Shown here one piece after another: positions 799-27,998 of a stretch of DNA of 39,290 nt (its first letter is position 1; the number at the start of each line of letters is the position of its first letter). The notes beneath the pieces are model-generated. The model ran no database searches and was not told the origin of the DNA. It saw only the letters and a program-made list of their open reading frames with translations. The translations under genes and the position numbers were made by a program. This DNA comes from Micromonosporaceae bacterium. GTDB taxonomy: Bacteria; Actinomycetota; Actinomycetes; Mycobacteriales; Micromonosporaceae. Where the stretch lies: the NCBI GenBank assembly GCA_009377645.1, contig WHTQ01000037.1, positions 1 through 39,290 of the forward strand, given 5' to 3'.

Positions 799-1222
799 GC
801 GACGGACGAGTCGGCCTGTACGCCGGATTCTGTGCACCGCCCACCTGCCGAGGCAGGCTGGCGGCCGGCGGCCATCCATCTCGGCCTGCCGTCGCCGGCA
901 GGCTCCAGCGGCCTACCCGCAGGCTCGGACGGGCCGTCCTCGGTCGCCTGCGCGGGCCACCACCGGCTGGCGGTGGCCCTTCTTGGCCTTGCTCCGGGTG
1001 GGGTTTACCGAGCCACCCCGGTCACCCGGGGTGCTGGTGGGCTCTTACCCCGCCGTTTCACCCTTACCGGCCGATAACCGGCCGGCGGTCTGTTTTCTGT
1101 GGCACTGTCCCGCGGGTCGCCCCGGGTTGCCGTTAGCAACCACCCTGCCCTGTGGAGTCCGGACGTTCCTCGGCGGCGGGACCTGCCCGCCGACGCGGCC
1201 GCCCGGCCGACTCGTCCGTCGC
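799..1222 (-). ncRNA. rnpB: RNase P RNA (bacterial type A)
   Basis: Catalytic RNA of ribonuclease P, which trims tRNA 5' leaders. On the minus strand the conserved cores are readable: GAGGAACGTCCGGACTCC near the 5' end, GGTAAGGGTGAAACGGC and GGTAAGAGCCCACCAGC in the middle, and ACAGAATCCGGCGTACAGG near the 3' end. The two ends (1205-1222 and 799-816) are perfectly complementary over 18 nt and form helix P1, which fixes the boundaries to within a few bases. The length of about 424 nt fits actinobacterial rnpB. All protein frames across this stretch are chance frames. Confidence 0.95.
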
Positions 1223-20207: not shown

Positions 20208-21221
20208 ATGCTGAAGATCGATGTCTTCAACCACATCTTCCCGGTGCGGTTCTTCGACCGGATGAACCAGGTGGCACCCGGGCTGGCGGACATGGGCAAG
20301 CGGGTCCGCAACATCCCGGTGCTGGTCGATGTGGACGCCCGGCTGCGGATGCTGGAGCAGTTCGGCGACGACTACCGGCAGGTGCTGACCCTGGCCTCAC
20401 CGCCGATCGAGCGGCTGGCCGGGCCGGAGGTCACGCCGGAGCTGGCCACGGTGGCCAACGACGGGATGGCCGGGCTGGTCGCCACGCACGACCGGTTCGT
20501 CGGGTTCGTGGCCTCGCTGCCGATGAACAACCAGGACGCGAGCCTGGACGAGGCGAAGCGGGCGATCGACCAGCTCGGCGCCACCGGGGTCCAGCTGTTC
20601 ACCAACGTCAACGGGCGGGCGCTCGACCACCCGGAGCTCCTGCCGCTGTTCGAGCTGATGGCCGCCTACGACCTGCCGGTCTGGGTCCATCCGGCGCGCG
20701 GTGCCGAGATGCCCGACTACCTCGACGAGGACCGTTCCCGGTACGAGATCTGGTGGACCTTCGGGTGGCCGTACGAGACCAGTGCGATGATGGCCCGCTT
20801 GGTCTTCAGTGGACTGTTCGACCGGTTCCCGGACCTGAAGATCATCACACACCATCTGGGCGGGATGACGCCCTACTTCGAGGGCCGGGTCGGCCCGGGC
20901 ATGGACCAGCTGGGCGCCCGCACCACCAGCGAGGACCTGACCGTGATCCGGGACCGGCTGGCGAAGCGCCCGCTGGACTACTTCAAGCAGTTCTACGGCG
21001 ACACCGCGGTGTTCGGCTCGGCCGCCGCCACCCGGTGCGGGCTTGAGTTCTTCGGGGCGGACCGGGTTCTGTTCGCCTCCGACTGCCCGTTCGACCCGGA
21101 GCGGGGGCCCGGCTACATCCGGGAGACGCTGCGGGTGCTCGACGGTCTCGACCTTACCGACCAGGTCCGGGCGCAGATCTACGAGGGCAACGCCCGGCGA
21201 CTGCTGCGGCTGCAGCTGTAG
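20208..21221 (+). CDS. Amidohydrolase-family protein (ACMSD-like)
   Basis: A 337-residue metal-dependent hydrolase/decarboxylase of the amidohydrolase-2 superfamily. The first metal motif, normally HxH, is DVFNHIFP here, so one His is Asn/Phe-substituted, as in one known branch. Other ligands are visible: WVHPARG, IITHHLGGM and FASDCPFD. Related enzymes (ACMSD, gamma-resorcylate and 5-carboxyvanillate decarboxylases) act on aromatic or muconate acids. ATG start after AAGGAG. Operon with iclR, and together with the importer a likely aromatic-acid uptake and breakdown module. Confidence 0.88.
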   Translation: MLKIDVFNHIFPVRFFDRMNQVAPGLADMGKRVRNIPVLVDVDARLRMLEQFGDDYRQVLTLASPPIERLAGPEVTPELATVANDGMAGLVATHDRFVGFVASLPMNNQDASLDEAKRAIDQLGATGVQLFTNVNGRALDHPELLPLFELMAAYDLPVWVHPARGAEMPDYLDEDRSRYEIWWTFGWPYETSAMMARLVFSGLFDRFPDLKIITHHLGGMTPYFEGRVGPGMDQLGARTTSEDLTVIRDRLAKRPLDYFKQFYGDTAVFGSAAATRCGLEFFGADRVLFASDCPFDPERGPGYIRETLRVLDGLDLTDQVRAQIYEGNARRLLRLQL

Positions 21222-21282
21222 CCTCCGGGTGCCCCGCTCACCGCCAGCGGCGCCGGCAGGGCCATAGGTATATGTTGGCAAC

Positions 21283-21323
21283 CCACATCCGGGTGGATGT
21301 GGTTCACATCGACCCGGATGTGG
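21283..21323. terminator. 41-bp imperfect palindrome between convergent genes
   Basis: Outer arms CCACATCCGGGT (21283-21294) and ACCCGGATGTGG (21312-21323) are perfect complements. Inside, GATGTG (21296-21301) pairs with CACATC (21305-21310) around a 3-nt GTT loop, broken only by one G-G mismatch. Alternative short hairpin: CCACATCC/GGATGTGG. It lies between the convergent amidohydrolase and peptidase genes, so it is best read as a bidirectional terminator, although no T-tract follows. Confidence 0.6.
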
Positions 21324-21357
21324 TCGGCGGCAGGTACCCCAACCCCGGCGGGCACGA

Positions 21358-24300
21358 TCACTCCAGCGAGAGCGATCCCATCGCGCCGCCGAACCACACC
21401 GTCTCCGGGTCCGAGCAGTGGCTGGTGCCGGCGTCGCAGACCCGGTACGTGTAGCTGCCGGGGCCCCGACCGAAAACTAGGTCGGTGTGCGAGCCGGTGT
21501 TCGGGACGGTCGTCAGCAGGTCACCGTCCCGGTGAATGTCGACCTGCGGCGCGGTGGCGTCGCGCCAGGCGAGGTCCACCGTGTGGCTCCCCCGAACCCG
21601 GCGCGCCTCGGCCGCCAGGACGATCTCCGGCAGGGCGGCCCGGTGCGCCAGCGTCAGGTAGTCGGCGCCGGAGCCCTCACCCACGCTCTGGCCGGTCACC
21701 AGCACCCGGGAGCCGTCCGGGCTGACCGCCAGCGCGGTCCCGGCGTCGCCGTCGTTGACCGGGCCGTTGTACCGCGCCTGCCAGTGCTGCTCGCCGGTGG
21801 CCGCGTCGTAGGCGAGCGTGGCGAAGTCGAAGCTCACGCCGACGCTGTTGCCGGTCACGAACACCTCCGAGCCGTCCGGGCTGGTGCCGATCGCGGCGGC
21901 CACATCCGGGCCGCCGACCGGCCCGTCGTACCGGGCGGCCCACCGCTGCGCCCCGGTGGCCACGTCGTAGGCCACCGTCCCGTAGTCGCCGGAGCTGCCA
22001 CCGGTCACCACCACCCCGGCCCCGTCCGGGCTCACGCTCACCGCGGACGCCGCGTCCGAGCCGCCGGGCAGCCCGTCGTACCGGGCGACCCACTGCTGGT
22101 CGCCGGTGGCCGGGTCGTAGCTGATCGTGGCGTAGTCGGCACCGGTGTCCACGCCGGCGCTGCCCCCGGTGACCAGCACCCGGGACCCGTCCGGGCTCAC
22201 GCCCAGCGCCTCCGCCCGGTCCACCCCGGCCGCCGGCCCGTCGTACCGGGCGGCCCACCGCTGCGCCCCGGTGACCGCGTCGTACGCGACCGTCGCGTAG
22301 TCCTCAGTGAACGATCCGCCCAGCTGGCTGGCGCCGGTGACGAACACCGTGCCGCCGTCCGGGCTGACGCCTAGCGCCTCTGCGGAGTCCAATGTGCTGC
22401 CCGGCCCGTCGTACCGGGCGAGCCACCGCTGCTCGCCGGTGGCCGCATCGTAGGCGATCGTGGTGTAGTCGGTGCCGAAGATCGAGGACGTGAACCGGCT
22501 GGCGCCGGTGACGAACACCGTGCCGCCGTCCGGGCTGACGCCCAGTGCCCGGGCGCCGTCCTGGTTCTCGCCGGGCCCGTCGAACCGGGCCACCCACAGC
22601 TGGTCACCGGTGGCGGCGTCGTAGGCCACCGTCGCATAGTCCGCATCGGAGCTGAACGAGCCGGTGGCGCTGTTACCGGTCACGAACACCCGGGAACCGT
22701 CCGGGCTCAGGCCGATCGCCCACGCCTCGTCGGTCTTGCTGGCCGGTCCGTCGAACCGGGCCAGCCACCGCTGGTCGCCGGTGGCGGTGTCGTACGCGAC
22801 CGTCACGTAGTCGGTGAGCGTACCGTCGCCGCCGTTGCGGCCGGTCAGGTACGCGGTGCCGCCGTCCGGGCTCAGCACCAGGTCGTGCGGGACGTCGCTG
22901 TCGGTCCCGGTGCCGGTGTAGCGGGACAGCCAGAGCTGTGCGCCCACCGGCGTGGTGCCGGTGCCGAGCAGGGTGACGGTGCTCGCTCTGTTCGGGCCGT
23001 TGCTGACCAGCCTTACGGTGGCCTCGGCCGGTCCCTGCAGGCTCGGGGTGAACCGGTAGTCCAGGGTGCAGTGCTCCAGCCGGGCCAGGGTGAACGGGGC
23101 GGCGCCGCAGCCGCCGCCGGCCGGCTCGAACCCGGAGTCCGGGACCGAGACGTCGCTGACCGTGAGCGGCTCGCCGCCGGTGTTGGTCAGGGTCAGGCTG
23201 GCCGGCTCGCTGGCGGACAGGGCCGCCACCTCACCGAAGTCGAGCGGGTTCGGCGAGACGCTCAGCTGCGGCCCGTCCGGGGCCGCCAGCGGGAAGTGCC
23301 GCTCGGTGGTCGTACCCTCGGCGATGCTGACCTGGTCCTGCTGCGGCCGGTACCCGAACGCGGCCGCCGAGACCTGGTACTCCCCCACCGGCAGGGTGAA
23401 CGAGTAGCCGCCGTCCGGGCCGATCGTGCGCCGCCGTTCCACGGCTCCGGTCACGGAGACGGTGGCGCCGGCGATCGGATCCCCGGTGCCGGCGTCGGTG
23501 ACGGTGCCGGTCAGCCGGCCGGTGGGTCCGCGCGGCGACTGCTCCACCGCGGCGAACGCGTCCAGCTGGCCCTGGCCCCACACGTTGTTGTCGCCCGGGG
23601 TGCCGCCACAGGTCAGGTCCGAGACGTCGACGGCGGTCAGGTCCAGCAGCTCCCGGGTGGCGACGATGTCGCGCTCCAGCTCGGGCGCCGCCGACCACAT
23701 CAGCGCCACCGTGCCGGCCACGTGCGGGGAGGCCATCGAGGTGCCGCTGTTCGCCCCGAAACCGTTGCCCGGCACCGAGGAGCGCACCGCCACCCCGGGC
23801 GCCGAGAGGTCCGGCTTGATGATCTCGGCGCCGAACGCCGACGGGCCGCGGTTGGAGAAGGCCGCGATGTTGCCGTTGATGTCGAACGCGCCGGCGGCGT
23901 AGCTCTCCGGCAGGTTCCCCGGGTCCGAGGACGAGCCGCACGGCGCCACCCCGGTGGTGGTGTTGCCGTTGGCGAACTGCGGGAAGATCCCGGCCGCCAC
24001 CCAGGCCTGCACGGTCGGCTGGTACCACGGGTCGGCGGTCGCCCCGCCGCCCCACGAGTTGTTGAGCACGTGCGGGCGCCGGTCCGGGTTCGCGTTCTCC
24101 CCCGCCAGGTCGGTCGGGGCCAGCATGAACTGCCCGCTGGCCAGCAGCGCCGCCTGCGAGCAGGACAGGCTCTCGCAGCCCTTGGCCGCGATCCAGGTCG
24201 CACCCGGGGCGACCCCGATCTGGTTGCCGGCACCGTCGTCGCCCACCATCGTGCCGATGGTGTGGGTGCCGTGCCCGTTGTTGTCGCACGGCACCAGCGA

Positions 24301-25005
24301 CGGGAAGCCGCAGACGCTGGACGGGTCATACCAGTTGTAGTCGTGGTCGAACTCGCCGTTGCCGAGGTTGCCCCGGTACTGCGCCACCAGCGCCGGATGG
24401 TCGAACTGCGCGCCGCTGTCGATGCTGCCGACCACGATGTCCTGGCCGGTAGTCCCGAACGTGGTCCACACCTGCGGAGCGCCGATCCGGTCGACGTTCC
24501 ACTCCACCGCGTCGATCCGTGGCTGCTCCGCGGCCGGAGTCGGCTCCGGCAGCCGGTACACCCGGTCCCCGGTCACCTGCGCCACCTCCGGCAGCGCCGC
24601 GATCCGGTCCAGCAGCTGCCGGTCCCCGCGTACCTGCACCGCGTTGGCGATCCAGTACGGCTGGTACTCCGCATGCGCGGCGTCCAGCATCGACACCAGC
24701 TCCGACTGGCTGGCCCGGGCCGTCCCGGTCAGCTGCTCGTACACCCAGCTGCCCTGGGCGGACCGGTCCGGCATCCGGGCGGCCGCCGCGAGGTCGGCCT
24801 GACCCCGCAGGTACACCCAGAACGTGGCGGACTGGCCGGTCGCCAGCTGGTCGAGCAGCTGCGGCTCCACCGTCCGGTCGCCGGTCGCCGGCGGCTGCGC
24901 CGACGCCGGTGGCGCGGCCGCGGCCAGGCCGGCCGCCAGGATGGTCGCGGCCAGGCCGGCCAACCACCTGCGGTGGCGATCGCGGGAGTCCCGACGGTGC
25001 AGCAC
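21358..25005 (-). CDS. Secreted S8 peptidase (bacillopeptidase F-like) with eight-repeat C-terminal propeller-like region
   Basis: A 1,215-residue secreted protein. Order: signal peptide (1-36, ends PASAQ); prodomain; S8 catalytic domain with Asp196 (GSIDSGAQ), His245 (GHGTHTIG), Asn347 (FANGN) and Ser423 (GTSMASPHVAG); a carboxypeptidase-regulatory-like domain near 495-575 (GRLTGTVTDAGTGDPIAGA); an Ig-like choice-of-anchor domain (590-690); eight repeats of about 55 residues with YDxATGDQxWxARYDGP and LGVSPDGxxVFVTG (about 690-1120); and a C-terminal Fn3-like piece. GTG start after GGAAGGGG. No sortase motif and no membrane anchor at the C-terminus. It probably degrades external protein. The frame is intact, unlike the S8 gene at 2.4 kb. 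Confidence 0.92.
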   Translation of the reverse strand: MLHRRDSRDRHRRWLAGLAATILAAGLAAAAPPASAQPPATGDRTVEPQLLDQLATGQSATFWVYLRGQADLAAAARMPDRSAQGSWVYEQLTGTARASQSELVSMLDAAHAEYQPYWIANAVQVRGDRQLLDRIAALPEVAQVTGDRVYRLPEPTPAAEQPRIDAVEWNVDRIGAPQVWTTFGTTGQDIVVGSIDSGAQFDHPALVAQYRGNLGNGEFDHDYNWYDPSSVCGFPSLVPCDNNGHGTHTIGTMVGDDGAGNQIGVAPGATWIAAKGCESLSCSQAALLASGQFMLAPTDLAGENANPDRRPHVLNNSWGGGATADPWYQPTVQAWVAAGIFPQFANGNTTTGVAPCGSSSDPGNLPESYAAGAFDINGNIAAFSNRGPSAFGAEIIKPDLSAPGVAVRSSVPGNGFGANSGTSMASPHVAGTVALMWSAAPELERDIVATRELLDLTAVDVSDLTCGGTPGDNNVWGQGQLDAFAAVEQSPRGPTGRLTGTVTDAGTGDPIAGATVSVTGAVERRRTIGPDGGYSFTLPVGEYQVSAAAFGYRPQQDQVSIAEGTTTERHFPLAAPDGPQLSVSPNPLDFGEVAALSASEPASLTLTNTGGEPLTVSDVSVPDSGFEPAGGGCGAAPFTLARLEHCTLDYRFTPSLQGPAEATVRLVSNGPNRASTVTLLGTGTTPVGAQLWLSRYTGTGTDSDVPHDLVLSPDGGTAYLTGRNGGDGTLTDYVTVAYDTATGDQRWLARFDGPASKTDEAWAIGLSPDGSRVFVTGNSATGSFSSDADYATVAYDAATGDQLWVARFDGPGENQDGARALGVSPDGGTVFVTGASRFTSSIFGTDYTTIAYDAATGEQRWLARYDGPGSTLDSAEALGVSPDGGTVFVTGASQLGGSFTEDYATVAYDAVTGAQRWAARYDGPAAGVDRAEALGVSPDGSRVLVTGGSAGVDTGADYATISYDPATGDQQWVARYDGLPGGSDAASAVSVSPDGAGVVVTGGSSGDYGTVAYDVATGAQRWAARYDGPVGGPDVAAAIGTSPDGSEVFVTGNSVGVSFDFATLAYDAATGEQHWQARYNGPVNDGDAGTALAVSPDGSRVLVTGQSVGEGSGADYLTLAHRAALPEIVLAAEARRVRGSHTVDLAWRDATAPQVDIHRDGDLLTTVPNTGSHTDLVFGRGPGSYTYRVCDAGTSHCSDPETVWFGGAMGSLSLE
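21650..22950 (-). repeat. Eight imperfect ~165-bp coding repeats (propeller blades)
   Basis: Eight copies of the YDAATG...ARYDGP...SPDG...VFVTG unit. Conservation is also high at DNA level between neighbouring copies, so unequal crossing-over could change the number. The limits are approximate. Confidence 0.65.
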
Positions 25006-25110
25006 AGCGTTCCCCTTCCCTCGCCCGCCCCCCACTGGTGCGAGAGTGGCATGGTCGGCCGCCGGAAGCTATGCGTAAGACAACGTAAAGAATGCCCGGA
25101 GGGTGCTCGG

Positions 25111-27923: not shown

Positions 27924-27998
27924 TGGTGGGCGCGGCTGGTTTCGAACCAGCGACCTCCCGCTTGTAAGGCGGGTGCTCTCCCGCTGAGCTACGCGCCC
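27924..27998 (-). tRNA. tRNA-Val(UAC)
   Basis: A 75-nt cloverleaf with encoded CCA. Acceptor GGGCGCG/CGCGCCC, D-arm GCTC...GAGC, anticodon stem CCCGC/GCGGG with loop CTTACAA (anticodon TAC, reads GUA), and T-arm GCTGG-TTCGAAA-CCAGC. All four stems are perfectly paired. Confidence 0.97.

Follow-up and report, generated by a model that had tools for sequence, protein, structure and literature searches.

The window analysed here is a stretch of 39,290 nucleotides from a Micromonosporaceae bacterium (contig WHTQ01000037.1), in which an amidohydrolase gene and a subtilase gene on opposite strands converge on a 41-bp hairpin flanked by outer arms (Table 1). The stop codon of the amidohydrolase gene lies 61 bp before the hairpin and that of the subtilase gene 34 bp after it. 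The start of the subtilase gene is uncertain, the gene caller favouring a gene of 3606 bp, and relatives of the subtilase account for 25 matching stretches in the same genome, itself counted. An Rfam scan of the window gave no match at the gathering score on the hairpin and returned only a bacterial RNase P class A RNA (803-1214, reverse strand, 265 bits) and a tRNA gene (27927-27998, reverse strand, 73.6 bits).

Table 1. Features discussed in the text, with positions in the window unless a locus number (L) is given.
Feature	Position	Strand	Basis or remark
Left neighbour, amidohydrolase gene (Amidohydro_2)	20208..21221	+	ORF, gene model, Pfam PF04909 (E 4.1e-39)
Left outer arm, GGTATATGTTGGCAAC	21267..21282	none	imperfect pairing with right outer arm; single-copy folds, alignment
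Core 41-bp hairpin, two tandem 20-bp dyads, CCACATCCGGGTGGATGTGG t TCACATCGACCCGGATGTGG	21283..21323	none	fold, inverted-repeat analysis, covariance model
Right outer arm, TCGGCGGCAGGTACC	21324..21338	none	single-copy folds, alignment
Right neighbour, subtilase gene (Peptidase_S8)	21358..25035	-	ORF, Pfam PF00082 (E 4.8e-38)
IS200/IS605-type transposase gene	L061:1489-1896	-	adjoins a UvrD-like helicase reading frame
Inverted word arrays of genome G019	loci L170-L185 (core 1001-1056) and L188-L203

A sequence-only reading of the window had described a near-perfect palindrome at this place, and its coordinates and anatomy were borne out: two arms of 19 nt (21283-21301 and 21305-21323), 95% complementary, enclose a 3-nt loop, and folding reproduces the proposed paired stretches of 12 and 6 bp with one G-G mismatch at -33.6 kcal/mol on the forward strand (-31.0 kcal/mol on the reverse strand). 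None of 200 shuffles folded equally well on either strand (z -6.5 and -7.4), and the G+C content of the hairpin is 61%, compared with about 71% in the surrounding sequence. Three of the four CACATCC/GGATGTG words proposed in that reading are exact, while the fourth reads CACATCG. The alternative fold into two hairpins does exist in this copy, at -20.8 kcal/mol, but it hardly competes with the long fold, which is stronger by about 13 kcal/mol and makes up 0.91 of the ensemble. Imperfect pairing continues outward beyond the core and reaches 21267-21338; these outer arms rest on single-copy folds, because the consensus fold of an 87-column alignment missed them, and in the alignment the left one is similar to GGGTATGTTGCGCAGT of another copy, C21. 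The absence of a T-tract was also correctly noted, with no run of T following the hairpin on either strand. The hairpin lacks the form of a classical intrinsic terminator, that is, a GC-rich stem followed by a U-tract, and a terminator scan of the window did not return it. Inverted repeats with at least 12 matched pairs number 46 in 439 kb of the genome, the window included, against 8 in a control made of one Markov-shuffled sequence, in which the longest has 14 pairs compared with 18 in the window hairpin. The palindrome goes beyond chance, because copies of it occur elsewhere in the genome.

Membership in a repeat family, suspected from the sequence, is confirmed by 24 strong places in the genome (G000), and a search of the genome for further copies found many, which rules out a single copy. 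BLAST with 71 bases returned additional places, and the dyad CCACATCCNNNNGGATGTGG, with at most 3 mismatches, gave 120 forward matches compared with 22 for the reversed control. A covariance model built from 23 copies of the genome, the window copy among them, produced 52 rows at E <=1, which correspond to 27 places, 24 of them strong, with E 1.6e-8 or better on whichever strand matches best, and three weak (C196, C34 and C184). All but one of the strong copies (23 of 24) are the training set and match by construction, C69 alone being new, and the count is a lower bound, 150 of 3281 first-look candidates having been scored. The window copy, itself part of the training set, scores 57.2 bits on the forward and 51.4 bits on the reverse strand. 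Locus L047 (C184:29452-29471) holds a single-dyad form that looks like half an element, GGTGC/GCTACC-like arms enclosing one CACATCC..GGATGTG hairpin. A single word of the DNA-uptake kind was rejected as an explanation, CACATCC occurring 22 times in 439 kb compared with 22.3 expected, in a control that is weak at such word length. Other long hairpins with short loops, located in convergent or tandem spaces at L155:19728-19774, L144:7910-7954 and L149:8545-8584, have no full further copies in the DNA compared.

Conservation was examined by aligning 33 distinct copies, 23 from the same genome (C47, identical to C21, was dropped) and ten from G001, a genome of the same genus. The conserved unit consists of the nearly fixed words CCACATC and GATGTGG, separated by six hypervariable bases and mirrored about a short loop: alignment letters 3-6, 18, 24-26, 38 and 39 are invariant, and positions 8-13 and 29-34 are the most variable and change together. 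Across both species, 89.8% of the cells of the long 19-bp hairpin are paired and 90 are double-changed, compared with a shuffle mean of 30.0 (0 of 500 shuffles as high), and the covariation score is 0.390, against 0.153 in shuffles and at most 0.110 in slid controls; the copies of G000 alone have 30 double-changed cells compared with 12.7 in shuffles. Pairs with a double change are no more numerous than in shuffles (6 versus 5.4 in G000, 9 versus 8.6 in both species), pair 15-27 (A-U in 23 rows, U-A in 10) is as expected from one inherited difference between the species, and the relatedness of the copies inflates the covariation signal. Template-switch correction of quasi-palindromes can also yield covariation without selection.

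The competing folds proposed earlier do not hold up as a conserved feature, and a conserved two-hairpin fold was rejected, its double-changed cells (4 versus 3.2, and 4 versus 8.0) showing no covariation above shuffles. This fold has a mean of -15.9 kcal/mol in the 24 copies of G000 and is nearly lost in the ten G001 copies (-5.3 kcal/mol), the best fold reaching -26.5 and -25.4 kcal/mol, respectively; C181 and C116 of G000 do fold as two hairpins. What is kept is one long hairpin and no switch, since the long stem covaries and the two-hairpin fold neither covaries nor persists. Mismatches show no preference for an RNA strand (34 G-T and 24 A-C in G000, p=0.24; 5 and 5 in G001). Selection may therefore act on DNA, this balance singling out neither strand and giving no sign that RNA is the target.

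The same model was applied to 61 genomes, the source genome included, with stricter filters and 107 candidates scored per genome, and seven of them had a match at E <=0.01: G000 itself; its congener G001; G018, G019, G028 and G034, which represent other genera within the family; and G050 from another family, the matches of G028, G034 and G050 being single and weak. Another genome of the genus, G002, gave no match with this model or with a second one derived from five G001 copies, two of these in both orientations. This second model found 10 places of the sister form in G001 and recognised the G000 copies down to E 1e-10. The exact tandem-dyad pattern of G000 occurs 0 times in a genomic contig set and 0 times in viral contigs, and the G001 form 0 times in the genomic set, from which near relatives may be missing. 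A looser word pattern matched three of 101 genomes of the family (G000, G001 and G017), the G017 match resembling, as judged by eye, a different repeat. Plasmids yielded one weak 47-bit match, within a gene, and phages, probed with a MITE-type copy (see below) only, yielded none. The repeat family appears confined to the genus within the sequence searched. G001 and G002 have no close counterpart of the amidohydrolase (best identities 31% and 36%) and so offer no orthologous empty site for the window copy.

Gene contexts were assigned with a gene caller trained on the genome itself. Eight of the 24 strong copies lie in convergent, 12 in tandem and three in divergent spaces, with one at a contig edge; C196 and C34, both weak, also lie in tandem spaces. 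Called genes leave 22 of the strong copies clear, C3 and C69 overlapping weakly scored ORFs; C47, C119a, C69 and C72 have short, low-scoring ORFs as neighbours, so that single assignments may be wrong. The ratio of 8 convergent to 3 divergent copies gives p=0.006 when compared with intergenic bases (6662 convergent and 14461 divergent), p=0.001 with spaces of at least 75 bp (16 and 50) and p=0.14 with the full set of counted spaces (56 and 57). In tandem spaces, the hairpin is closer to the upstream stop codon in 9 of 12 measured cases, which include C34 and exclude C196 and C3 for overlap. The ten G001 copies comprise three convergent, four tandem and two divergent cases and one without assignment. 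These location counts favour gene ends, if not strongly by themselves.

Some of these properties recall REP and BIME sequences. Passages of PMC3733652 describe them as dispersed extragenic palindromes, often in inverted pairs and chiefly downstream of genes, which favour spaces between converging or co-directional ORFs and are proposed to act in supercoiling; its main text does not contain the words Actinobacteria, Micromonospora, Streptomyces or Frankia. The present repeat is likewise dispersed and extragenic over its 24 strong places, paired and near gene ends, and the counts given above show the same preference for convergent and co-directional spaces, whereas its design of words and spacers is its own. 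The REP tags GTAG and CGTC occur within 8 nt of the stem in 0 of 24 copies; within 25 nt, 4 of the 24 copies have GTAG on the outward strand (0 in the opposite-orientation control) and 2 of the 24 have CGTC (4 in the control). No RAYT transposase was found in the draft genome, which is 95% complete: the sole Y1_Tnp match belongs to the IS200/IS605 type (145.8 bits, with a cut-off of 55; REP_Tyr_transpos 33 bits, with a cut-off of 80), and the DNA examined around this gene has no copy of the hairpin, so a RAYT-driven REP was rejected. The repeat is REP-like in its behaviour but is no REP by the tests run. Integron attC sites, which stand in cassette arrays and carry boxes GTTRRRY/RYYYAAC, with two paired boxes and a spacer mirrored about a loop, have a similar folded two-box architecture. 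Nevertheless, identity with attC was rejected, because the words CCACATC/GATGTGG do not fit the boxes and the copies are dispersed over many contigs without cassette arrays. Among the papers ranked highest in literature searches, none describes the repeat family, as judged by titles and the openings of abstracts.

Many copies sit inside a longer imperfect palindrome. The flanks of 9 of the 24 hairpins match a 186-base probe around copy C31 (L050:1920-2105), and C31 and C164 have both ends of an element, CTAGTGGTGTGTCTC... and ...CACACTAG, about 165 bp apart. These ends are CTAG-ended terminal inverted repeats, CTAGTGGTGTGTCTC / GAGACGGCACACTAG, as in MITEs, a type to which the palindromic ERIC element belongs, and the CTAG at both ends could be either a target duplication or the end of the repeat. 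Other copies of the element are truncated at differing positions; in C152 and C200, both ends are present and the hairpin is missing. On the other hand, the probe matched neither the window copy nor any of the other 14 strong copies at E <=0.01. The window copy is of a shorter type with GGTAtgTTG-like outer arms, unlike the element type, and no terminal inverted repeats were seen at it, these being located in the element that carries or adjoins the nine hairpins. A search for a parent transposon with the same ends gave five matches, all of them element copies already found, and a parent IS was rejected. The copies would have spread as DNA, since flanks are shared at unrelated sites, which points to a non-autonomous element, and we infer that the repeat is mobile.

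A model for the function of the window copy comes from Streptomyces clavuligerus (72.5% GC). According to passages of PMC8269248, 353 of its 535 structured transcript ends have no U-rich tract, these HS-U-lack hairpins being likened to I-shaped terminators, and its 55 bidirectional ends, which overlap on opposite strands, have stronger and longer stems, shorter loops and less read-through. The window hairpin shares the long stem, short loop, missing U-tract and high GC content of these ends, which differ from it in being defined by mapped 3' ends and in that the same passages describe no sequence family. The reading preferred here, with a probability of roughly one half, is that the repeat is a genus-restricted palindromic repeat of the REP/MITE-like kind and that its window copy acts as a bidirectional transcript end without a U-tract; such an end is judged most likely, and the form of the hairpin fits the S. 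clavuligerus description. Both transcripts of the converging genes would cross the hairpin, and each would form the same structure with 19-bp arms and a short loop; the likely effect would be polymerase pausing, followed by ending of both messages or protection of their 3' ends. A bidirectional terminator agrees with the position of the hairpin and with its long covarying stem, although transcription across the hairpin and termination there are predictions.

Two rivals are serious. The contrast between near-fixed words and hypervariable spacers would also allow recognition of the words by a protein, and in the first alternative, which is on balance unlikely, CCACATC/GATGTGG would be sites for a DNA-binding protein, such as a transposase or a chromosome-organising or topology protein, the hairpin being a by-product of paired inverted sites. 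A topology protein would act where converging transcription piles up supercoils, in line with the supercoiling role proposed for REPs in PMC3733652. Near-invariance of the words beside six hypervariable bases agrees with this explanation, and so do the arrays of G019. In that genome, from another genus, the model of the present family found 18 places, 16 of which were fetched and two, at contig ends, omitted. The near-fixed words GATCCACATCC / GGATGTGGATC / GATCACGTC form inverted arrays there, each outward arm reading GATCACGTC-N5-GGATGTGGATC, often with a second GGATGTGGATC 19 bp further, and the half-site spacing CACATC-N6-GAYGTG matches that of the present family. The word columns are identical in 13-16 of the 16 copies and the 5-base spacers are freely variable; they are fully complementary between the two arms in 3 of 16 copies and pair at chance level in the other 13 (14 of 65 cells, versus 26% expected from composition). 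Nine of the 16 arrays are convergent, five tandem, one divergent and one unassigned, a ratio of 9 to 1 that gives p=0.003 when spaces are counted and 3e-5 when bases are, with the 16 surrounding stretches as background. If related, these arrays suggest that the words themselves may be read, besides the hairpin; their kinship is unproven, and they were retrieved with a word-seeking model, so that the likeness of the words was selected for. Moreover, the three copies with complementary spacers point to some constraint on the hairpin in G019 too, the spacers of G000 and G001 mostly stay complementary, which binding alone would not need, and single words are not over-represented in the genome (see the counts above).

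The other serious rival, which is also unlikely, holds that the copies are neutral debris, non-autonomous MITE/REP-like palindromes that survive in the least harmful places, downstream of genes, and have no function in transcription. Shared flanks, ragged ends and the two elements that lack the hairpin would be expected of such debris, gene ends are permissive sites, and the upkeep of the hairpin could be mutational. Against it stand the covariation of the long stem over two species and the scarcity of copies in divergent spaces, both of which would, however, also fit the purging of harmful insertions. A more specific proposal, that the repeat serves, folded or in arrays, as the target of a protein dedicated to reading the words (recombinase, transposase or a factor organising gene ends) and is present in two genera of one family with a preference for convergent genes, seems improbable. 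A plain single-copy bidirectional terminator that resembles other sites by chance is highly improbable: the position between converging genes would suit it, and eight other strong non-coding hairpins matched only themselves, one 16-nt match excepted, in a comparison over 602 kb that is biased in that many of the loci were chosen for matching the window, but the 24 strong copies with common words and geometry refute single-copy status.

The window hairpin is therefore one of about two dozen copies, mostly near gene ends, of a repeat family that is new but whose general kind is familiar, and the repeat probably helps to end transcripts that run towards each other. Since the same long hairpin with a short loop stands at many gene ends, the genome offers about 24 natural test sites, and its congener ten diverged ones. 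The combination of near-fixed words and hypervariable complementary spacers means that the reading of words and the formation of the hairpin are separable by experiment. Should a protein prove to read the words, the repeat would be a mark of gene ends that is read as DNA, instead of or besides an RNA hairpin.
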